Of a DNA stretch of 48,028 nucleotides, positions 6,877 to 47,850 are shown one piece after another (within the stretch, counting starts at the first letter, position 1; every line of letters begins with the position of its first letter). The stretch covers positions 1 to 48,028 of the forward strand of contig JAIOPV010000190.1 in assembly GCA_021413735.1 (NCBI GenBank), read 5' to 3'. The notes under the pieces were generated by a model. It made no database searches and was not told the DNA's origin. It was given only the letters and a program-made list of their open reading frames with translations. The DNA comes from Planctomycetota bacterium (GTDB lineage: Bacteria > Planctomycetota > Planctomycetia > Gemmatales > Gemmataceae). The translations under genes and the position numbers were made by a program.

Positions 6877-6985
6877 ACAGGGCTTCCGCCCAGTGCTACG
6901 GAAGACGGCCCCTCCGGGGCGAAAACAGATGGCTTGTCTTCGCTCCGGAGGGGCCGGCGTTTGGAGCACTGGGCGGAAGCCCTGT
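6877..6985. repeat. Long nested inverted repeat (109 bp)
   Basis: Outer arms ACAGGGCTTCCGCCCAGTGC plus T (6877-6897) and its exact reverse complement (6965-6985) enclose inner arms at 6907-6923 and 6939-6955 that match at 16 of 17 positions (GGCCCCTCCGGGGCGAA). It fills the gap between the folK fusion and the small basic protein, both on the minus strand. It resembles a miniature mobile or dispersed palindromic element; it could also act as a terminator. Confidence 0.85.
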
Positions 6986-22080: not shown

Positions 22081-22159
22081 GTTCGGGCCGCCACGGAGGG
22101 CGGCCCCTACAAGAGAAAACACTTGTTTTGTAGGGGCCGCCCTCCGTAGCGGCCCGACC
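22081..22159. repeat. 32-bp inverted repeat with 15-nt loop
   Basis: The left arm (22081-22112) and right arm (22128-22159) match at 30 of 32 positions; the core is CGGAGGGCGGCCCCTACAA. It lies between two minus-strand genes, upstream of the TIGR03067 gene and downstream of the esterase fusion. It is a likely dispersed palindromic element that may also act as a terminator. Confidence 0.85.
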
Positions 22160-34364: not shown

Positions 34365-34416
34365 ATTGCCGGCAGGTTGAACTCGCGAGATTCCCCCACC
34401 ATGTTGAGGTTTTGTG

Positions 34417-35307
34417 ATGTTCCGATCTCTGCACCGTCGGCTGTTGTACGCGGCCTTCGGACTGAGCGCCCTTGCGATCCTTCCCCTGACGGGAACGGTA
34501 AGCGCCAAGCAGCAACCATTCCGGAATAACTTCGTTCCGTACATCCCGCCGGGCACCTTCCGACCGCTGTTGGCTCCGGGGGCACTCGGCCAGTTCGGCA
34601 TCGGCGGTGCTGGCATCGCCGGACAAGGCGGCCAGTTCCAGGGAATTGGCGGTCAGATTCAGGGCGGCCAGATCCAAGGCTTCGGTGGACAGATCCAGGG
34701 CTTTGGTGGACAGATCCAGGGTGGGCAGATCCAGGGCGGCCAGTTTCAGGGCGGGCAGTTTGGCGGCGGCTTCGGTGGACAGTTCCAAGGCGGCCAGTTT
34801 CAGGGCGGGCAGTTCCAGGGTGGTCAGTTCGGTGGACAGTTCCAGGGTGGTCAGTTCGGCGGGCAGTTCCAGGGCGGTCAATTCGGTGGACAGTTCCAGG
34901 GCGGTGGGTTAGGTGGACAGTTCCAGGGCGGTGGAATCGGCGGTGGAGGTAACTTCATCGTGGGTCCGTTCCCGCAAGTCGGTCCTGGCTACCTCGGGAT
35001 GGGAAGTGGAGCACTTGGCGGACAGCAAGGCGGAATCCAGGGTGGCGGTTTTGGTGGCCAGTTCCAGGGTGGCCAGTTTGGCGGCCAGTTCCAGGGTGGG
35101 CAGTTCCAGGGTGGGCAGTTCGGCGGGCAGTTCCAAGGCTTCGGTGGCCAGTTCCAGGGCGGTCAGTTCGGTGGGCAGTTCCAAGGTAACATCGGTGGTC
35201 AGTTCGGTGGGCAGTTCCAGGGTAACCTCGGCAACCGCGGTTTTGGCGGCCAGTTCCAAGGTAACTTCGGTGGTAAGATTGGGTTCAGCGGCGAATACGG
35301 CAACTGA
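34417..35307 (+). CDS. Secreted Gly/Gln/Phe-repeat protein, paralogue 1
   Basis: 296 aa. GAGG at 34406-34409 selects ATG at 34417 over GTG at 34414. Signal peptide (LLYAAFGLSALAILPLTGTV SAK region). A conserved head FRNNFVPYIPPGTFRPLLAP with GALGQFGIGGAGIAGQGGQF leads into about 230 residues built from GGQFQGGQ and FGGQIQGGQ units with almost no charged residues and no Cys. A conserved island NFIVGPFPQVGPGYLGMGSG interrupts the repeats near residue 185, and the protein ends KIGFSGEYGN. I know no family for it. The composition resembles glycine-rich structural or prion-like low-complexity proteins, so an extracellular or surface structural role is inferred. It is followed by two paralogues on the same strand. 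Confidence 0.85.
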   Translation: MFRSLHRRLLYAAFGLSALAILPLTGTVSAKQQPFRNNFVPYIPPGTFRPLLAPGALGQFGIGGAGIAGQGGQFQGIGGQIQGGQIQGFGGQIQGFGGQIQGGQIQGGQFQGGQFGGGFGGQFQGGQFQGGQFQGGQFGGQFQGGQFGGQFQGGQFGGQFQGGGLGGQFQGGGIGGGGNFIVGPFPQVGPGYLGMGSGALGGQQGGIQGGGFGGQFQGGQFGGQFQGGQFQGGQFGGQFQGFGGQFQGGQFGGQFQGNIGGQFGGQFQGNLGNRGFGGQFQGNFGGKIGFSGEYGN

Positions 35308-35337
35308 TCCCGAAGTTTCTTCTGTTGCGACTTGTGG

Positions 35338-35360
35338 CTTCGCAGACTGAGCCTGCGAAG
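35338..35360 (+). terminator. Stem-loop after GQF-repeat gene 1
   Basis: CTTCGCAG (35338-35345) and CTGCGAAG (35353-35360) pair around a 7-nt loop, 30 nt after the stop. There is no T-tract, so termination is uncertain. Confidence 0.4.
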
Positions 35361-35401
35361 TCACGAGCGACGAAGTCCAAAAGCTCAAAACAACCCTCTC
35401 T

Positions 35402-35587
35402 ACCGTTAATGCTCTCAAATCACGAAACTGTCCGAGCTATTTTGGCGTAAGTTTCAGCATTTGATTGCATCTTGCTCATTTTGATGGGTAAAGTTGGTTG
35501 ATCCACACTCCGCGCTTCCTTTCCGGGTGCCCCTGAAATCGCCGGCACATCGGACTCGCTCAATCCCCCCGACCACTGAGGTTTATG
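35402..35587 (+). repeat. Duplicated upstream region of GQF-repeat gene 2
   Basis: This stretch aligns with 36737-36924, sharing ACCGT-AATGCTCT-AAAT at the start, TTCCGGGTGCCCCTG and GGCACATCGGACTC in the middle, and TTGAGGTTT/CTGAGGTTT with the ATG at the end. The duplication therefore included about 190 bp of promoter/leader DNA. Confidence 0.75.
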
Positions 35588-36598
35588 ATGTTCCGATCAT
35601 TGCATCGTCAACTCCTGTATGCAGCATTCGGGCTTGGTGCCCTTGCAATTCTTCCGATGACGGGGACGGTGATCGCCAAACAGCAACCATTCCGGAATAA
35701 CTTTGTTCCATATGTCCCACCAGGAACCTTCCGGCCACTGTTGGCTCCGGGAGCGCTTGGGCAGTTCGGCATCGGCGGTGCTGGCATCGCCGGACAAGGC
35801 GGCCAGTTCCAGGGAATTGGCGGTCAGATTCAGGGCGGCCAGATCCAAGGCTTTGGTGGACAGATCCAGGGTGGACAGATCCAGGGCTTCGGTGGACAGA
35901 TCCAGGGCGGCTTTGGCGGCGGCCAGATTCAGGGCGGCTTTGGCGGTGGCCAATTTGGTGGCGGCGGCTTCGGCGGTCAGTTCCAGGGCGGCGGCCAGTT
36001 CCAGGGCGGCTTTGGCGGTGGTGGCTTCCAGGGTGGCTTTGGTGGTGGCCAGATCCAGGGCGGTTTCGGTGGCGGCCAGTTCCAGGGCGGTGGGTTAGGT
36101 GGCGGTCTAGGCGGTGGAATCGGCGGTGGAATCGGCGGCGGACTCGGCGGTGGAGGTAACTTCATCGTCGGTCCGTTCCCGCAAGTCGGTCCTGGCTACC
36201 TCGGGATGGGTGGCGGTGCTCTGGGCGGCCAGCAAGGCGGCATCCAGGGTGGCGGTGGCTTCCAGGGCGGCTTCGGTGGTGGTGGCTTCCAGGGCGGTGG
36301 TGGTTTCGGTGGTGGTGGCTTCCAGGGCGGCTTCGGTGGTGGTCAGTTCCAGGGTGGCGGCTTCGGTGGTGGTCAGTTCCAGGGTGGCGGCTTCGGCGGC
36401 GGCGGCTTCCAAGGCGGCTTCGGCGGCGGGAACCGCGGCTTCGGTGGCGGCGGCTTCCAGGGCGGCTTTGGTGGCGGCGGCTTCCAGGGTGGCTTTGGTG
36501 GCGGCGGCTTCGGTGGCGGCGGTTTCGGCGGTGGCGGCTTCGGCGGTGGCGGCTTCGGCGGTGGGAAGATCGGGTTCAGCGGCGAATACGGCAACTAA
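35588..36598 (+). CDS. Secreted Gly/Gln/Phe-repeat protein, paralogue 2
   Basis: 336 aa. Of two adjacent ATGs (35585, 35588) the second fits the GAGG at 35578-35581 and aligns with the paralogues (MFRSLHRQLL). The signal peptide and head FRNNFVPYVPPGTFRPLLAP are nearly identical to paralogue 1. The repeat part is richer in FGGGGFQGG and FGGGQFQGG units. The island NFIVGPFPQVGPGYLGMGGG and end KIGFSGEYGN are kept. The repeat differs in number and type between copies, which points to unequal recombination under selection for composition. A strong terminator follows. Confidence 0.85.
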   Translation: MFRSLHRQLLYAAFGLGALAILPMTGTVIAKQQPFRNNFVPYVPPGTFRPLLAPGALGQFGIGGAGIAGQGGQFQGIGGQIQGGQIQGFGGQIQGGQIQGFGGQIQGGFGGGQIQGGFGGGQFGGGGFGGQFQGGGQFQGGFGGGGFQGGFGGGQIQGGFGGGQFQGGGLGGGLGGGIGGGIGGGLGGGGNFIVGPFPQVGPGYLGMGGGALGGQQGGIQGGGGFQGGFGGGGFQGGGGFGGGGFQGGFGGGQFQGGGFGGGQFQGGGFGGGGFQGGFGGGNRGFGGGGFQGGFGGGGFQGGFGGGGFGGGGFGGGGFGGGGFGGGKIGFSGEYGN

Positions 36599-36632
36599 TC
36601 CCGAATCCGCTGAACAAAATGAGAAGTATCTC

Positions 36633-36670
36633 GTCGCCCTCTCCCTTGTTGGAGAGGGCGACTTGTTTTT
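36633..36670 (+). terminator. Rho-independent terminator after GQF-repeat gene 2
   Basis: GTCGCCCTCTCC (36633-36644) and GGAGAGGGCGAC (36651-36662) are exact complements around CTTGTT and are followed by TTGTTTTT. This is a textbook terminator, so gene 3 needs its own promoter. Confidence 0.9.
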
Positions 36671-36736
36671 GGTGTGACGCTGGGATCGCAACTCCGCAGG
36701 CGACGACAAACCGAGAACCCAAATCGGTCCGACACA

Positions 36737-36924
36737 CCGTGAATGCTCTTAAATCTCAAAATAATTTAGATTATTTCGTCGTAAGTTTTGGCAGTCGATT
36801 GCCTTTGGAGTCCCTCTGTGGTTAAGCTTGGTTGAAGTAATTCAATTCCTGTCTACCCTTCCGGGTGCCCCTGTACGTCGCTGGCACATCGGACTCAACC
36901 ACCCCAGCACAATTGAGGTTTGTG
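36737..36924 (+). repeat. Duplicated upstream region of GQF-repeat gene 3
   Basis: Homologous to 35402-35587. It lies downstream of a strong terminator, so it should contain the promoter for gene 3. Conserved blocks between the two copies are the best place to look for it. Confidence 0.75.
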
Positions 36925-37896
36925 ATGTTCCGATCACTGGATCGTCGGCTTCTGCACGCGGCTTTCGGACTTGGTGCCCTTGCCATCATCATCCCGATGA
37001 TCGGTGTCGCGAGCGCCAAGCAGCAATTCCGGAATAACTTTGTTCCGTATGTCCCACCCGGAACCTTCCGGCCGCTGTTGGCTCCGGGAGCGCTTGGGCA
37101 GTTCGGCATCGGCGGTGCTGGCATCGCCGGACAAGGTGGGCAGTTCCAGGGCGGCGGCCAGTTCCAGGGGGGCGGCCAGATCCAGGGCTTCGGTGGACAA
37201 ATCCAGGGTGGACAGATCCAGGGCGGACAGATCCAGGGCGGCTTTGGCGGCGGCCAGATTCAGGGCGGCTTTGGCGGTGGCCAATTTGGTGGCGGCGGCT
37301 TCGGCGGTCAGTTCCAGGGCGGCGGCCAGTTCCAGGGCGGGTTCGGTGGCGGTGGTCAGTTCCAGGGCGGTGGCGGCTTCCAAGGCGGTGGCGGCTTCCA
37401 GGGTGGCGGTGGGTTAGGTGGCGGTCTTGGCGGTGGCATCGGCGGCGGTCTCGGCGGTGGAGGTAACTTCATCGTGGGTCCGTTCCCGCAAGTCGGTCCT
37501 GGCTACCTCGGGATGGGTGGCGGTGCTCTGGGCGGCCAGCAAGGCGGCATCCAGGGTGGCGGTGGCTTCCAGGGCGGCTTCGGTGGTGGCCAGATCCAGG
37601 GCGGTGGTGGTTTCGGTGGCGGGCAGTTCCAGGGCGGTGGGGGCTTCCAAGGTGGCTTCGGTGGTGGCCAAGGTGGGTTCCAGGGCGGCTTCGGTGGTGG
37701 TGGGTTCCAGGGCGGTGGTGGCTTCGGTGGTGGTAATCGTGGTTTCGGTGGCGGTCAGTTCCAGGGTGGCGGCTTCGGTGGCGGCGGCTTCGGTGGTGGC
37801 GGCTTCGGCGGTGGTGGCTTCGGTGGTGGCGGCCAGTTCCAGGGTGGTGGTTTCGGCGGCGGGAAGATCGGGTTCAGCGGCGAATACGGCAACTGA
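36925..37896 (+). CDS. Secreted Gly/Gln/Phe-repeat protein, paralogue 3
   Basis: 323 aa from ATG at 36925, aligned with the paralogue starts (MFRSLDRRLLHAAFGLGALA) and preceded by TTGAGG. A longer frame to 36865 is rejected. Signal peptide, head QFRNNFVPYVPPGTFRPLLA, GQFQGGGQFQGGGQIQG repeats, island NFIVGPFPQVGPGYLGMGGG, and terminal KIGFSGEYGN. The repeat part has long FGGGGFGGGGF tracts near the end. Apart from single Asn-Arg pairs (NRGFGG), the repeat region lacks charge. A terminator follows 32 nt after the stop. Confidence 0.85.
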   Translation: MFRSLDRRLLHAAFGLGALAIIIPMIGVASAKQQFRNNFVPYVPPGTFRPLLAPGALGQFGIGGAGIAGQGGQFQGGGQFQGGGQIQGFGGQIQGGQIQGGQIQGGFGGGQIQGGFGGGQFGGGGFGGQFQGGGQFQGGFGGGGQFQGGGGFQGGGGFQGGGGLGGGLGGGIGGGLGGGGNFIVGPFPQVGPGYLGMGGGALGGQQGGIQGGGGFQGGFGGGQIQGGGGFGGGQFQGGGGFQGGFGGGQGGFQGGFGGGGFQGGGGFGGGNRGFGGGQFQGGGFGGGGFGGGGFGGGGFGGGGQFQGGGFGGGKIGFSGEYGN

Positions 37897-37928
37897 TCCA
37901 ACCGAGTTCAGATAACACGACCTGCCAG

Positions 37929-37960
37929 CGGCCCGTGACTTGTTCACGGGCCGTCTTCAT
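37929..37960 (+). terminator. Rho-independent terminator after GQF-repeat gene 3
   Basis: CGGCCCGTGA (37929-37938) pairs exactly with TCACGGGCCG (37944-37953) around a 5-nt loop, followed by TCTTCAT. It closes the three-gene cluster. Confidence 0.8.
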
Positions 37961-38080
37961 TCCGGACGTTGTAGAATGGTTTCGGACGCGAAAAGTTTGC
38001 CCGCTAAGTTCATCAATTTAATCGCTGATTGCCGCAAGGCGATTATCACAAACAGGATGTGGTCCAAAGATAAGGCCGGC

Positions 38081-38156
38081 GATTATTCCAATTATCATTC
38101 TTCCGGACAGGTTAAATGGTTCCGGGGAGGGGTATGCGTGTCGCCCGGAATCAATC
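38081..38156 (+). ncRNA. Conserved structured element, copy A (upstream of guaB)
   Basis: This segment is homologous to the minus-strand segment 47145-47070. Shared blocks include TATTCCAA, TCCGGACAGGT, ATGGTTCCGG and TGCGTGTCG. In copy A, GGTTCCGGG (38118-38126) pairs with CCCGGAATC (38144-38152) around a 17-nt loop containing GGGTATGCGTGTC. Against copy B the ninth pair changes from A-T to G-C and another from G-C to G-T, so pairing is kept. The element lies between the GQF terminator and the guaB promoter candidate. It could be a small RNA, a dispersed structured repeat or a DNA regulatory site; the type given here is tentative. Confidence 0.5.
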
Positions 38157-38184
38157 ACGAACGACCGCCACGGAGCGGTTGCCA

Positions 38185-38214
38185 TCGACTCATTTCGCCC
38201 CGGCTTCCTATAAT
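38185..38214 (+). promoter_or_regulatory. Candidate guaB promoter
   Basis: A perfect TATAAT (38209-38214) is preceded after 18 nt by TCGACT (38185-38190; four of six -35 matches). Transcription would start about 30 nt before the guaB ATG. If right, the conserved element at 38081-38156 is upstream of the start site and not part of the guaB mRNA leader. Confidence 0.5.
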
Positions 38215-38250
38215 CTCGAATCCCCCTTATCACCGGAGCCGGGAGCCGTC

Positions 38251-39750
38251 ATGCAGGATCGCATCGCATACATGGGAATCACGTTCGACGACGTGCTGCT
38301 GGAACCGGGTTACAGTGACCTCGTTCCCCGCGACACCGACGTTCGCACGCAACTGACCCGCAATGTGAAGATCAACATTCCGATTGTGTCCAGCCCGATG
38401 GACACGGTCACGGAAAGCGAACTGGCCATCGCGCTCGCTCAGGAAGGCGGCATCGGGATCATTCACAAGAACCTGACGATCGCCTTGCAAACCCGCGAGG
38501 TGGACAAGGTCAAGCGCAGCGAGAACGGCATCATCACCGACCCGATCACGTTGCCGCCTGATGACACGGTTGGCCACGCTCGCCGGGTGATGGAAGAACA
38601 CCATGTCAGCGGAGTGCCGATCACGATCGGCGACGAGAAGCAACTCAAGGGCATTCTGACACGGCGCGATCTGAAGTTTCTCGACGACAACGATCAGAAA
38701 CTGAGCGAGGTGATGACGAGCAAGAACCTCGTCACGGCACCCGAGAACACAACACTCGAAGTTGCAGAAAAAATCTTAACGCGAAATAAAGTGGAGAAAC
38801 TTCTCCTGGTGGACGATCAATTCAGACTGAAGGGGTTAATCACGATCAAGGACATCGACAAGATCCTGAAGTTTCCGAATGCGTGTAAAGATGCGCGGGG
38901 TCGGTTGAAAGTTGGGGCAGCGATCGGGGTCAACGATTTCGACCGGGCGGCATCACTGATTGAGGCAGGGGTCGATGTGTTGGTGGTGGATTCGGCCCAC
39001 GGGCACAGTCGGAACGTGATCGAGACCGTACGGGGTTTGAAGAAGCGGCACTCGATTGACGTGATCGCGGGGAATGTGGCGACTGCGGAGGGTGCGAGAG
39101 CACTGGCCGACGCGGGAGCAGACTGCGTGAAGGCGGGCATTGGCCCTGGATCAATTTGCACAACACGGATCGTGTCTGGTGTTGGTGTGCCCCAGATGTC
39201 GGCCATCGCGAATGTCGCGAAAGGGCTGCAAGGCACGGGGGTACCTCTGATCGCCGACGGCGGCATCAGGTACTCCGGCGACATCACCAAGGCACTCGCG
39301 GCGGGAGCGTTCACGGTCATGATCGGCGGTCTGTTCGCAGGGCTCGATGAAAGCCCAGGCCAGACGATCTTGTATCGTGGTCGGTCGTTCAAGCAGTATC
39401 GCGGAATGGGTTCGCTCGGTGCGATGATGGCCGGCAGTGCCGACCGATATCAGCAGTCGAGCAGCGGCAACGCCGCACAACCCGCGAACGGGAAACTGGT
39501 GCCGGAAGGGGTCGAGGGGCGAGTGCCCTATAAGGGCCACCTCTCCTCGTTCGTGTACCAGTTGGTCGGCGGCATACGAGCCGGTATGGGGTACTGTGGT
39601 TGCAAAACGCTGGAAGAACTTCGGGTGAAAGCCCGATTCATCCAGGTGACCGCGGCGTCGGTACAGGAGAGCCACCCGCATGACATCTTTATCACACATG
39701 AAGCCCCGAACTACAGCTCCGCGGAAGCGAGCAGTGGCGACGGCGTGTAA
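38251..39750 (+). CDS. guaB: IMP dehydrogenase
   Basis: 499 aa; ATG at 38251 is 6 nt after GGGAG. Catalyses the NAD-dependent oxidation of IMP to XMP, the committed step to GMP. Visible parts: the N-terminal [20 protein letters not shown] strand, [20 protein letters not shown], two CBS domains at about residues 95-210 ([40 protein letters not shown]), the VDSAHGHS motif, the active-site loop [15 protein letters not shown] with Cys303, [17 protein letters not shown], and the flap ([12 protein letters not shown]). The last 17 residues overlap the next gene's start (39680) in another frame. Full length for the family. Confidence 0.97.
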
Positions 39751-45478: not shown

Positions 45479-46918
45479 TCACGGCTCCCCGGATTCGCCA
45501 CCGGGACCAACTCGCACAACCCGCACGGTCGGGAAGTGAGGTCCACCTTCAATCGGATGACCAGCCAGAAGCACGACCAGTGCCCCCGGAGCCACGGCTC
45601 CCACTCGGTACGCATCTTGAACAGCGGCAGCAAGTCGATCTGCTCCGGGCGCTGTCGGCGACATCCGAACGCCAGCGATGCCCCAGACGAGCGCCAACCC
45701 TCGCACGATCGCATCCGTCGGAGCGACCGCAACCACCTGAGCGCCAGGTCGGTGACGGACAATTAGCCTTGCTGTGCGGCCAGAGAGGGTTGGCGTGACA
45801 ATCGCGGCCGCTCCGATTTCTCTGGCCAGGTTGCACGCGGCAAGCGTGATCGGATCGTCGATGCCCGCTTCTGGATGGAAGTACCCCGCAGCGCCAACGA
45901 TTCCCGCAGCGTGAATGTGGGCTTCCGTCTCGACAGCAATCCGATGCATACAAGTGACGGCTTCGACGGGATACATGCCGACAGCGGTTTCGCCCGAAAG
46001 CATCACAGCGTCGGTTCCGTCGAAGATGGCGTTCGCGACGTCGCTGGCCTCGGCCCGAGTTGGCCGTGGGTTCTCTCGCATCGAATCGAGCATGTCCGTG
46101 GCGGTGATAACAGGCTTGCCAGCCAGCCGAGCTTCCGCAATCAGCATCTTCTGCACAGTCGGCACACGTTCCAGCGGCATCTCGACGCCAAGATCACCGC
46201 GAGCCACCATGATCGCATCGAACGCCGCGACGATCGCCACGGCCCGGCTCACAGCTTCAGGCCGCTCAATCTTCGCGAGCACGGGAACCTTCATTCCGAC
46301 AGCAGCACACGCGGCACGAACATCGTCGGCGGCCTCAGGCCCGCGTACGAACGACACGGCCACCCAGTCCACGCCTGCACGAGCGGCGATTTCCAGTGCG
46401 ACGCGATCTCGCGGTGTAATGGTCGCAATGGTGAGCGGTGTGTCGGGAAGGTTCAGACCCTTGTTCGGCTTCAGCGTTCCGCCCACAACAACGGTCGCCT
46501 TCAACTGGCCGCTGCCGAGCGAAGCTGCTTCGAGCTGGAGTCGGCCATCGTCGAGCAGCATTCGCTGACAGGGTCGCACATCCGCGAGGATCTCCGGTTC
46601 GGTCAGGATCAGGTCGTCGCAGTGGCACGGCTCGTGCGAAAGCGAGAAGGTCACCGAATCACCGGGTATCAGTTCCCGAGCAGCAGTCAGTTTCACCCGC
46701 AGTTTCGGACCGGGCAAATCGGCCATCACGCCAGCAACCTTGCCGACTCGCTCGGCAGCTTCACGGAAGCGGAGAACGCGAGCGATGTGCTCCTCGGCCG
46801 CACCGTGCGAGAAGTTAATGCGGGCGACATCGACGCCGGCACGAAGGATTGCTTCGAGGCGTTCTAGGCTGTCTGTCGCTGGCCCGATGGTTGCAACGAT
46901 CTTCGTTCGCCGTGGCAT
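45479..46918 (-). CDS. pyk: Pyruvate kinase
   Basis: 479 aa. RRTKIVATIGPATDSLERLE, ARINFSHG, DLPGPKLRV, and the active-site region VLAKIERPEAV and MVARGDLGVEMPLERVPTVQ are complete, so it should convert phosphoenolpyruvate and ADP to pyruvate and ATP. The usual TATQMLESM motif is TATDMLDSM here. MLSGETAVGMYPVEAV and the C-terminal allosteric domain (VTPTLSGRTARLIVRHRPGA) follow. ATG at 46918 has only a weak GAGAACC upstream. A structured element homologous to the one near guaB lies about 150 nt upstream (47145-47070). Confidence 0.96.
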   Translation of the reverse strand: MPRRTKIVATIGPATDSLERLEAILRAGVDVARINFSHGAAEEHIARVLRFREAAERVGKVAGVMADLPGPKLRVKLTAARELIPGDSVTFSLSHEPCHCDDLILTEPEILADVRPCQRMLLDDGRLQLEAASLGSGQLKATVVVGGTLKPNKGLNLPDTPLTIATITPRDRVALEIAARAGVDWVAVSFVRGPEAADDVRAACAAVGMKVPVLAKIERPEAVSRAVAIVAAFDAIMVARGDLGVEMPLERVPTVQKMLIAEARLAGKPVITATDMLDSMRENPRPTRAEASDVANAIFDGTDAVMLSGETAVGMYPVEAVTCMHRIAVETEAHIHAAGIVGAAGYFHPEAGIDDPITLAACNLAREIGAAAIVTPTLSGRTARLIVRHRPGAQVVAVAPTDAIVRGLALVWGIAGVRMSPTAPGADRLAAAVQDAYRVGAVAPGALVVLLAGHPIEGGPHFPTVRVVRVGPGGESGEP

Positions 46919-47069
46919 ACGCGGTTCTCGTTCCGTTCAAGGTGAGCAGAAGCAAGTTCAGGGGAGATGAGAGGTCGGCAGAGAGGAGCAGACGAGTTCT
47001 TGCGTCAGTCTAAGCGCGGCGTGTTCGTGAGGCCAACGGATTCGCGGAAGTCAAGCGTCTCGGCAGTTC

Positions 47070-47145
47070 TGATTGGTTCCGGACGACACGCACACCCATG
47101 TCCGGAACCATGTCACCTGTCCGGAGGAATCAATGTTGGAATATC
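47070..47145 (-). ncRNA. Conserved structured element, copy B (upstream of pyk)
   Basis: Minus-strand homologue of 38081-38156. Here the main stem is longer and perfect: GGTTCCGGAC (47109-47100) pairs with GTCCGGAACC (47084-47075) around a 15-nt loop holding GGGTGTGCGTGTC. The same total stem-loop length (35 nt) as copy A lets the columns be aligned directly. It is oriented towards pyk, as copy A is towards guaB. An upstream TCCGGA could pair with the stem's own TCCGGA, so two folds compete. Identity as RNA is inferred from the pairing, not shown. Confidence 0.5.
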
Positions 47146-47235
47146 CGTCGCTGGCAACGTCGCATTCCACTTTGGCAGCGCAACGCTGCGAGCGGCGAAT
47201 ACCCATATTGGGAACGTACTCCCTAAAAGTGCTCC

Positions 47236-47850
47236 ATGACGCTGCGACGGGCCATTCATTCACCAATCTTCGCGTTCCTCGTGCTGCTCGCCATCTGGGC
47301 AGCGGCGATCGGGGTCTGCGTCAGTTTGGCGGTTCGCGATCCCCGGCAGGAACTGCGACACCCGGCTATCACGGGAAGTGCCGCGGCAACTGTTGGCTGG
47401 ATGATCCTTGCGTGGGCCACGATGCGGTTCGCCGACAGACTCGCCCGATTGCTGTGGACGTTCGGATTGGCGACGCTGTTCGTTCATCTCGTGCTGGCGT
47501 TCGGGCTGGCGCACGGGTGGTCGCACGAGGCGGCGGTCGAACACGTCCGCACGGTCGGCGGTTCGGGGGCGGGAATTGTCGTGAACTATCTGTTCGCGCT
47601 GGCGTGGGCTGTCGATGTGGTGTGGTGGTGGGTGAATCCGATCACGCACGCGAACCGTCCTCGCTGGATAGCGGTGACGGTACACGGATTTCTGGCCTTC
47701 GTTGTCGTGAATGCGACTGTGATCTTCGGACCAGCCGAACGGCGTGTTGTGTACGCCGTGGGGCTCTTCATGTTGGCGGCGATCGCGTGGCGTAAGTCTG
47801 ACGAAGGGAAGACCCCTCCCCAACCCCTCCCCCAAGGGGAGAGGGGCTAA
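47236..47850 (+). CDS. Integral membrane protein of unknown function (204 aa)
   Basis: About five membrane helices: FAFLVLLAIWAAAIGVCVSL, ATVGWMILAWATMRF, LLWTFGLATLFVHLVLAFGL, GIVVNYLFALAWAVDVVWWW and IAVTVHGFLAFVVVNATVIF, with a last one after YAVGLFMLAAIAW. No catalytic motif. After WRKSDEG the C-terminus reads KTPPQPLPQGERG: this is the translation of a common GC-rich palindromic repeat (47812-47846), so the original stop was probably lost or lies earlier. Divergent from pyk with the structured element between them. Confidence 0.75.
   Translation: MTLRRAIHSPIFAFLVLLAIWAAAIGVCVSLAVRDPRQELRHPAITGSAAATVGWMILAWATMRFADRLARLLWTFGLATLFVHLVLAFGLAHGWSHEAAVEHVRTVGGSGAGIVVNYLFALAWAVDVVWWWVNPITHANRPRWIAVTVHGFLAFVVVNATVIFGPAERRVVYAVGLFMLAAIAWRKSDEGKTPPQPLPQGERG
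47812..47846. repeat. GC-rich palindromic repeat (PQPLPQGERG type)
   Basis: CCCCTCCCCAACCCCTCCCC and GGGGAGAGGGG form an imperfect hairpin. When read in frame these repeats give PQPLPQGERG, a sequence seen at the C-termini of many unrelated predicted bacterial proteins. A related CTCCCCCTTCC...GGGAGAGGG pair follows at 47868-47906. Confidence 0.7.

Follow-up and report, generated by a model that had tools for sequence, protein, structure and literature searches.

Hairpin segments upstream of guaB and pyk as probable decayed copies of a modular MITE in a planctomycete genus

The guaB and pyk loci

The window, which is the whole stretch of 48,028 nucleotides that was analysed, contains the genes for IMP dehydrogenase (guaB) and pyruvate kinase (pyk), each with a copy of the same hairpin-bearing segment upstream (Table 1). 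These segments, here called copy A (at guaB) and copy B (at pyk), had been reported in a preliminary description as homologous and lying on opposite strands. Their coordinates and strands are as reported, and a repeat finder run on the window pairs positions 38077-38157 with 47070-47150 (81 nt at 80%). The pattern TTCCGG-N4-GGGTRTGCGTGTC-N2-CCGGAA, for which up to three mismatches were allowed, has two occurrences in the window, each without mismatch, and none in 100 shuffles. The copy A relic lies between a terminator-like hairpin of the upstream gene and the promoter-like sequence of guaB, and the copy B relic lies in the gap between the divergent pyk and a plus-strand gene at 47236-47850 that has no Pfam match. 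A profile of the element as it occurs in the genome to which the window belongs (G000, 9.8 Mb) aligns with copy A at about 37938-38167 and with copy B at 47205-47024. No terminal inverted repeats (TIRs) or target duplications are recognisable in copies A and B, and it is homology alone that assigns them, as putative relics, to the mobile family described below.

Table 1. Coordinates of the two element copies and of the neighbouring genes in the window
Feature	Position	Strand	Remarks
Copy A, core as in the preliminary description	38081..38156	+	Leader, start unit and terminal hairpin
Copy A, whole relic	37955..38167	+	Approximate at its left edge; no recognisable terminal inverted repeats
Copy A, start unit TTCCGGACAGGTTAAATGG	38101..38119	+	
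Copy A, terminal hairpin	38118..38152	+	Left arm GGTTCCGG 38118-38125, loop 38126-38144, right arm CCGGAATC 38145-38152
guaB promoter-like ATCGAC-19-TATAAT	38184..38214	+	Downstream of the element
guaB	38251..39750	+	IMP dehydrogenase; Pfam IMPDH and CBS
pyk	45479..46918	-	Pyruvate kinase; Pfam PK and PK_C; in 19/19 genus genomes
Copy B, core as in the preliminary description	47070..47145	-	
Copy B, relic	47024..47205	-	Ends not recognisable; from profile alignment

Two base pair differences between the copies had been taken as a sign of a structured RNA. Both are present: the pair beside the loop is G-C versus A-T, and one at the outer end of the stem is G-T versus G-C. Taken by themselves, the pair differences of these two copies are no evidence of covariation.

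Among the genomes of the genus, guaB gives a single above-threshold match in 16 of 19. All 15 genus genomes with a readable upstream region (one of them for about 150 nt only) have a TATAAT just before guaB, which is preceded at a distance of 19 nt by NTCGAC in 12 of the 15 and by a nearer TTGACTC in three. The TATAAT of the window, at 38209-38214, indeed lies between the element and the gene, as had been pointed out. The position of the element upstream of this promoter-like sequence, which all 15 readable genomes share, argues against a leader at guaB. Of the 15 readable genomes, only G000 and its relative G008 carry the element at guaB, and upstream of pyk it was not found in the 17 other genomes that were read (18 including G000); in both cases strongly diverged versions could escape the search model. 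Inspection by eye shows that two further relatives, G013 and G014, share the type of upstream gene and the hairpin at guaB and have no element before the promoter-like sequence, and that pyk in G008 apparently has the same divergent neighbour, without the element. Conservation specific to these genes was therefore rejected (guaB 2/15 genomes, pyk 1/18). The element is probably not a guaB/pyk leader, and the proposal that it points to these two genes in that capacity is not supported, in view of its position at guaB, the missing pyk copies and its abundance in the genome, which is described in the next section.

Just upstream of guaB (34414-37896) lie three paralogous genes in tandem, which encode Gly/Gln-rich repeat proteins of the GGQFQGG type. 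A similar Gly/Gln-rich gene adjoins guaB in G013 and G014.

Copy number and distribution

A search model of 47 positions with an 8-bp stem, built from 28 copies, detects at least 149 strong copies in G000 at E <= 1.2e-6. This number is a lower limit, as the search scores no more than 150 candidates and all 150 rows were filled. The segments are thus part of a dispersed repeat, which the preliminary description had named as its own fallback. With copy A as the query, Blast yields 52 rows for the same genome, and a pattern covering the 5' half of the core gives 76 sites at up to three mismatches, with none for the reversed-pattern control.

The 47-position model was also used with stricter filters on 59 genomes, including G000. 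Any match at E <= 0.1 is found in 16 of these, and many copies occur only in G000, G008 and G013. In G008 there are 118 rows at E <= 1, of which 108 are below 0.001, and the 64 rows in G013 are mostly weak. The remaining 13 matching genomes have one or two matches each, with E values of 0.001-0.09, and by eye most of these resemble chance matches. The relative G005 has two matches with the same architecture and the same loop, and with arms GTGCGG/CCGCAC.

The exact core pattern is found in no viral contigs, and in the named bacterial collection it occurs in five stretches of one MAG, Planctomycetaceae bacterium isolate DS2.012 (G000 itself may be absent from that collection). Rfam gives nothing at gathering score in the window or in loci L154, L150, L061 and L108; for positions 37900-38300 there is one match at chance level (best 15.1 bits versus 39 for CRISPR-DR33, E 2.7). 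Among the titles listed in literature searches on MITEs, repeats and non-coding RNA in Gemmata and Planctomycetes, none is about the element.

Architecture of the element

The hairpin recognised initially is the central core of a larger element. This core is modular and consists of the leader TTCTGATNNNNTTTC, a start unit, zero to several further units in G000, and a last unit that faces an inverted unit across a conserved loop, which in most copies reads GGGTGKGCATNTCG. The number of direct units per G000 copy varies from 1 to 9. Their spacing is tight: when intervals of 17-23 nt were looked for in 91 copies, 210 of the 212 found measured 19-21 nt. In G008 a second unit at 17-23 nt was not seen in 47 of 72 copies. 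G013 shows a derived, near-uniform amplification, for example in L107, L111 and L115, with GGTTCTGG units about 20 nt apart. By eye, the G/C-rich loop of these amplified copies runs in the opposite sense to the direct units, as though it had been flipped between the arms.

The youngest copies are found in G008 and are about 248 nt long with inverted ends of 20 nt; the length of intact copies is about 247-282 nt. The TIRs of about 20 nt read GGGTGTGSCACTGGTTTCC, with forms like GGGTGTGGCACTTGATTCC in G000, and the TIR pattern has 52 sites in G008, five in G000 and none in the control. Both ends could be recognised in 15 of the 163 copies examined (11 in G008 and four in G000), while three G008 loci end too close to the core for both ends to show. 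A 9-nt target duplication with at least eight of nine positions matching flanks 11 of the 15 two-ended copies (nine of nine in seven), against 0 of 1859 mixed pairings in the control. Of the four copies that fail the 8-of-9 test, L141 and L289 have 8-nt duplications by eye, and L163 and L224 have none that is clear. The element is thus short, present in many copies and intergenic, with a target duplication of constant length in the 11 copies and, in the young G008 copies, TIRs within the 15-30 nt typical of MITEs; related ends occur in G000. A facing pair of these TIR variants 0.5-5 kb apart was found neither in G000 nor in G008, both of which are drafts, so that no autonomous partner emerged from this search.

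Many end-repeat sites in G008 contigs C1, C4, C7, C25, C34, C41, C74 and C92 lie within about 150 nt of the contig ends, which suggests that near-identical young copies probably break the assembly.

Persistence of the core in old copies

For the 91 G000 copies found by their core, identity to the consensus lies mostly at 0.69-0.94 within the core and at 0.43-0.67 outside it, where one upstream unit is an exception with 0.76, but this set is itself selected by the core. A core-independent search was done with a looser pattern for the upstream module (the strict version matched nothing), giving 26 sites versus six in the control. Of the 21 sites judged real, 20 have kept the core at a score of at least 26 bits, and L328 is without it. 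The 20 copies have an identity of 0.77 in the core (shuffled 0.54) and of 0.60-0.66 in the rest (shuffled 0.50-0.52), and the core is the better kept part in 18 of them, as measured against a consensus that came from core-found copies. Within these limits, decay in old copies is slower in the core than in the remainder of the element. The possibility that slower core decay is an artefact of core-based finding was rejected since the module-found copies show the same.

Genomic context and shared sites

According to a crude gene caller, 90 of 91 cores in G000 are located outside predicted genes. The downstream gene has the same direction as the core in 68 of 90 cases (p 1.2e-6; 47 versus 15 in same-direction gaps), and the median distance from core end to start codon is 130 nt. 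In G008 these numbers are 40 of 70 and 17 versus 19, hence no bias. Orientation accordingly follows the downstream gene in G000 but not in G008. A role as a strand-biased segregation motif was dropped, as by eye the G013 copies occur on both strands. The TTGAC found about 25 nt after many cores was rejected as a -35 box because it recurs as part of the element, and the leader was dropped as an extended -10 or ECF -10 sequence (TCTGAT) in view of the lack of a conserved -35 by eye.

Shared insertion sites were compared for 72 G008 copies (of 118 rows) and 91 G000 copies (of at least 149). For most copies no shared site was found between these two samples. Flank matching gave five pairs in the same gap and direction, two in the same gap but inverted (L215/L253 and L251/L285) and one on another side. 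The inverted pairs point to repeated insertion in the same gap or to inversion. The same-gap pair L150/L243 includes a young two-ended G008 insertion, L150, and therefore probably represents separate insertions. In the best example, the orthologous pair L161/L061, leader and core are nearly identical with two compensated stem pairs, and the spacers around them have diverged. Compensated changes also occur in L258/L059 and in the guaB pair of G000 and G008.

Covariation and folding of the hairpin

Covariation in G008 was analysed for 72 copies, 66 of them distinct, using five measures and 500 shuffles. The stem pairs that change on both sides are UA/CG (34:25), AU/GC (30:24) and GC/CG (47:7). 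Paired cells amount to 90.9% versus 85.5 when shuffled, both-side cells to 56 versus 28.6, and the covariation score to 0.248 versus 0.156 +- 0.011; none of these values is reached in any of the 500 shuffles, and slid structures give far lower values than the true stem. There is no excess in the number of pairs with both-side change (3 versus 3.7 expected, 485/500) or in the number of pair types (8 versus 8.7, 483/500). The three measures with an excess are inflated by the relatedness of the copies, to which the two without excess are least prone. When column pairs of G008 are ranked by corrected mutual information, the first two both belong to the stem.

The covariation signal of G000 is weak: the score is reached in 17 of 500 shuffles and the top mutual-information pairs lie outside the stem. 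Among the first 28 G000 copies, a set selected with a regular expression biased towards intact arms, six inner pairs are invariant and none of the five measures exceeds the shuffles. The arms in G013 are TTCTGG/CCAGAA, also in L092 with its full architecture, and the direct units of the amplified copies have changed too. The conserved hairpin with co-changing arms, originally proposed from two copies, is accordingly supported in G008 by three of five measures, and at orthologous sites of G000 and G008.

The start unit, which lies outside the hairpin, partly co-changes with the arms in G008. The combinations are G with G-C (25 copies), A with A-T (22), G with A-T (9), G with A-C (7) and A with A-C (3), with two other combinations seen once each and four copies unread. 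Such co-change is also what homogenisation among the units, or one binding protein shared by them, would produce. It bears on the competing pairing through an upstream TCCGGA that the preliminary description had put forward, which may or may not form. Half-way states in G008 are mostly A-C at pair 9-39 (ten cases, with one of G-U), and at pair 4-44 G-U occurs often; together these favour neither strand as RNA. Folded as RNA, neither window copy is clearly more stable than its shuffles, with z values of -0.88 and -0.27 for the given strand and -0.28 and -1.37 for the opposite strand. When two G008 copies were folded as DNA, L150 was far better than shuffles (z -4.58) and L154 was not (z -1.43).

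Possible explanations

In view of the above, we consider it very probable that both segments are decayed copies of one non-autonomous MITE, which spread in a sub-lineage of this planctomycete genus. The intact element of about 250 nt, with TIRs of about 20 nt and a 9-nt target duplication, would have been moved by a transposase acting in trans. Such an enzyme, of which none was found, is suggested by the TIRs and target duplications, and would most likely be of the cut-and-paste DDE kind. The sites without the element (pyk in G008, guaB in G013 and G014) agree with this explanation, and the inverted same-gap pairs and the young L150 of pair L150/L243 are what separate insertions should produce. 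The orientation bias in G000 argues against it, as this would be unexpected for a purely neutral element. Further points against it are that copies A and B are assigned by homology, that few copies have both ends recognised and four of these fail the 8-of-9 test, that no autonomous partner emerged, that covariation shows no excess in two of five G008 measures and is weak in G000, that the start unit partly co-changes with the arms, and that a second unit is often not seen in G008. The joint changes of the arms and the slower decay of the core would most likely mean that the element depends on its hairpin and units, for protein binding or for folding as a single strand, in its own upkeep or in tolerance by the host, and some promoter-adjacent copies may be retained for effects on the neighbouring gene. 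The MITE family is ordinary in kind and unusual in build.

Four other explanations can be considered. In the first, the element is a DNA site, in which the inverted unit and the direct units, arrayed in G000 at 19-21 nt (approximately two helical turns), are all recognised by one dedicated protein, which could be a transposase, a nucleoid protein or a regulator. The arms would then match since one protein reads every unit. The tight unit spacing fits this, as do the joint changes of direct and inverted units in G013 (TTCTGG) and G005 (GTGCGG) and the partial co-change of the start unit. However, the specificity of a single protein does not predict that TTCCGG, TTCCAGG and TTCCACG coexist in G008, even among copies with the same TIRs. 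Moreover, 16 G008 copies have A in the left arm and G kept in the start unit, and the many G008 copies that have no second unit at that spacing also speak against an array. We regard a DNA site as possible, though only tentatively so.

Inverted repeats can be corrected by template switching, by which one arm is copied onto the other. The matching arms could therefore be a mutational or genealogical by-product, arising by such switching between close inverted repeats or from the spread of a few founders, and no function would be needed. That changed pairs are mostly transitions is consistent with this, as is the lack of excess in the two covariation measures least prone to relatedness. A by-product is nevertheless unlikely, because mismatched intermediates are common, with 11 of the 66 distinct G008 rows showing one at pair 9-39, and the slower decay of the core is left unexplained.

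About equally doubtful is a third option, by which the core has a function of its own as RNA or DNA; the MITE would have sown it in well over 100 intergenic regions, and selection would keep it while the transposon rots. The result would be a regulon-like set in which unit array and hairpin evolve together, each species having its own unit (TTCCGG, TTCCAGG, TTCTGG, GTGCGG).

The weakest option is a regulatory RNA, either a leader or a small RNA, with the hairpin as its working part, spread by a mobile element and kept beside genes; the co-changing arms in G008, the matched arm changes in G013 and G005, the island of near-identity with two compensated pairs at L161/L061, the compensated changes at L258/L059 and at guaB, the G000 orientation bias with its median distance of 130 nt to the start codon and the strong DNA folding of L150 would all suit such an RNA, but it is quite improbable given that the guaB core lies upstream of the promoter-like sequence, that G008 has no orientation bias, that Rfam gives no match, that the window copies do not fold clearly below shuffles, that half-way pairs are mostly A-C at 9-39, with G-U common at 4-44, and that two of five covariation measures show no excess.

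With the two segments read as MITE copies, what appeared to be a riboswitch candidate for two genes becomes a mobile repeat family of a planctomycete genus, the copies of which should not be annotated as guaB/pyk leaders. Its copies number in the hundreds, the young ones still having their ends and the old ones little besides the core, and so offer a natural test set for asking which of the two, element or host, benefits when a MITE retains an internal hairpin.

Comparison with known repeat families

The closest description is that of the BrickBuilt MITE of Porphyromonas gingivalis, which has a leader, tandem 23-nt units and a tail, is always intergenic, numbers 19 copies in one strain, has target duplications that vary in length, and has had its promoter activity measured (PMC4596501). 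Compared by description, the planctomycete element shares the leader, the tandem units (19-21 nt in G000), the tail, the many copies and the intergenic position (90/91 in G000). It differs in its higher copy number of at least 149 and its nearly constant 9-nt duplication. A covarying hairpin of the last and the inverted unit is not mentioned for BrickBuilt in the description used for this comparison (PMC4596501).

REP and REPIN sequences are described as palindromic repeats of 20-40 bp with a GTAG or CGTC tag at one end, are tied to RAYT transposases and are also reported in Planctomycetes (PMC3733652). They resemble the present family as high-copy palindromic repeats and are set apart, again by description, by the length of about 250 nt, the terminal inverted repeats and the 9-nt target duplication found here. 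Classical bacterial MITEs such as RUP and NEMIS are given as 70-300 bp long with TIRs of 15-30 bp and no coding capacity (PMC3733652). The element agrees with that account in size, TIRs and absence of coding capacity, and departs from it in the modular unit array and hairpin core at its centre.

The window also contains two long hairpins, at 6877-6985 and 22083-22157, with arms of 51 and 35 nt that are 86% and 91% complementary, respectively; by eye these are unrelated to the element.
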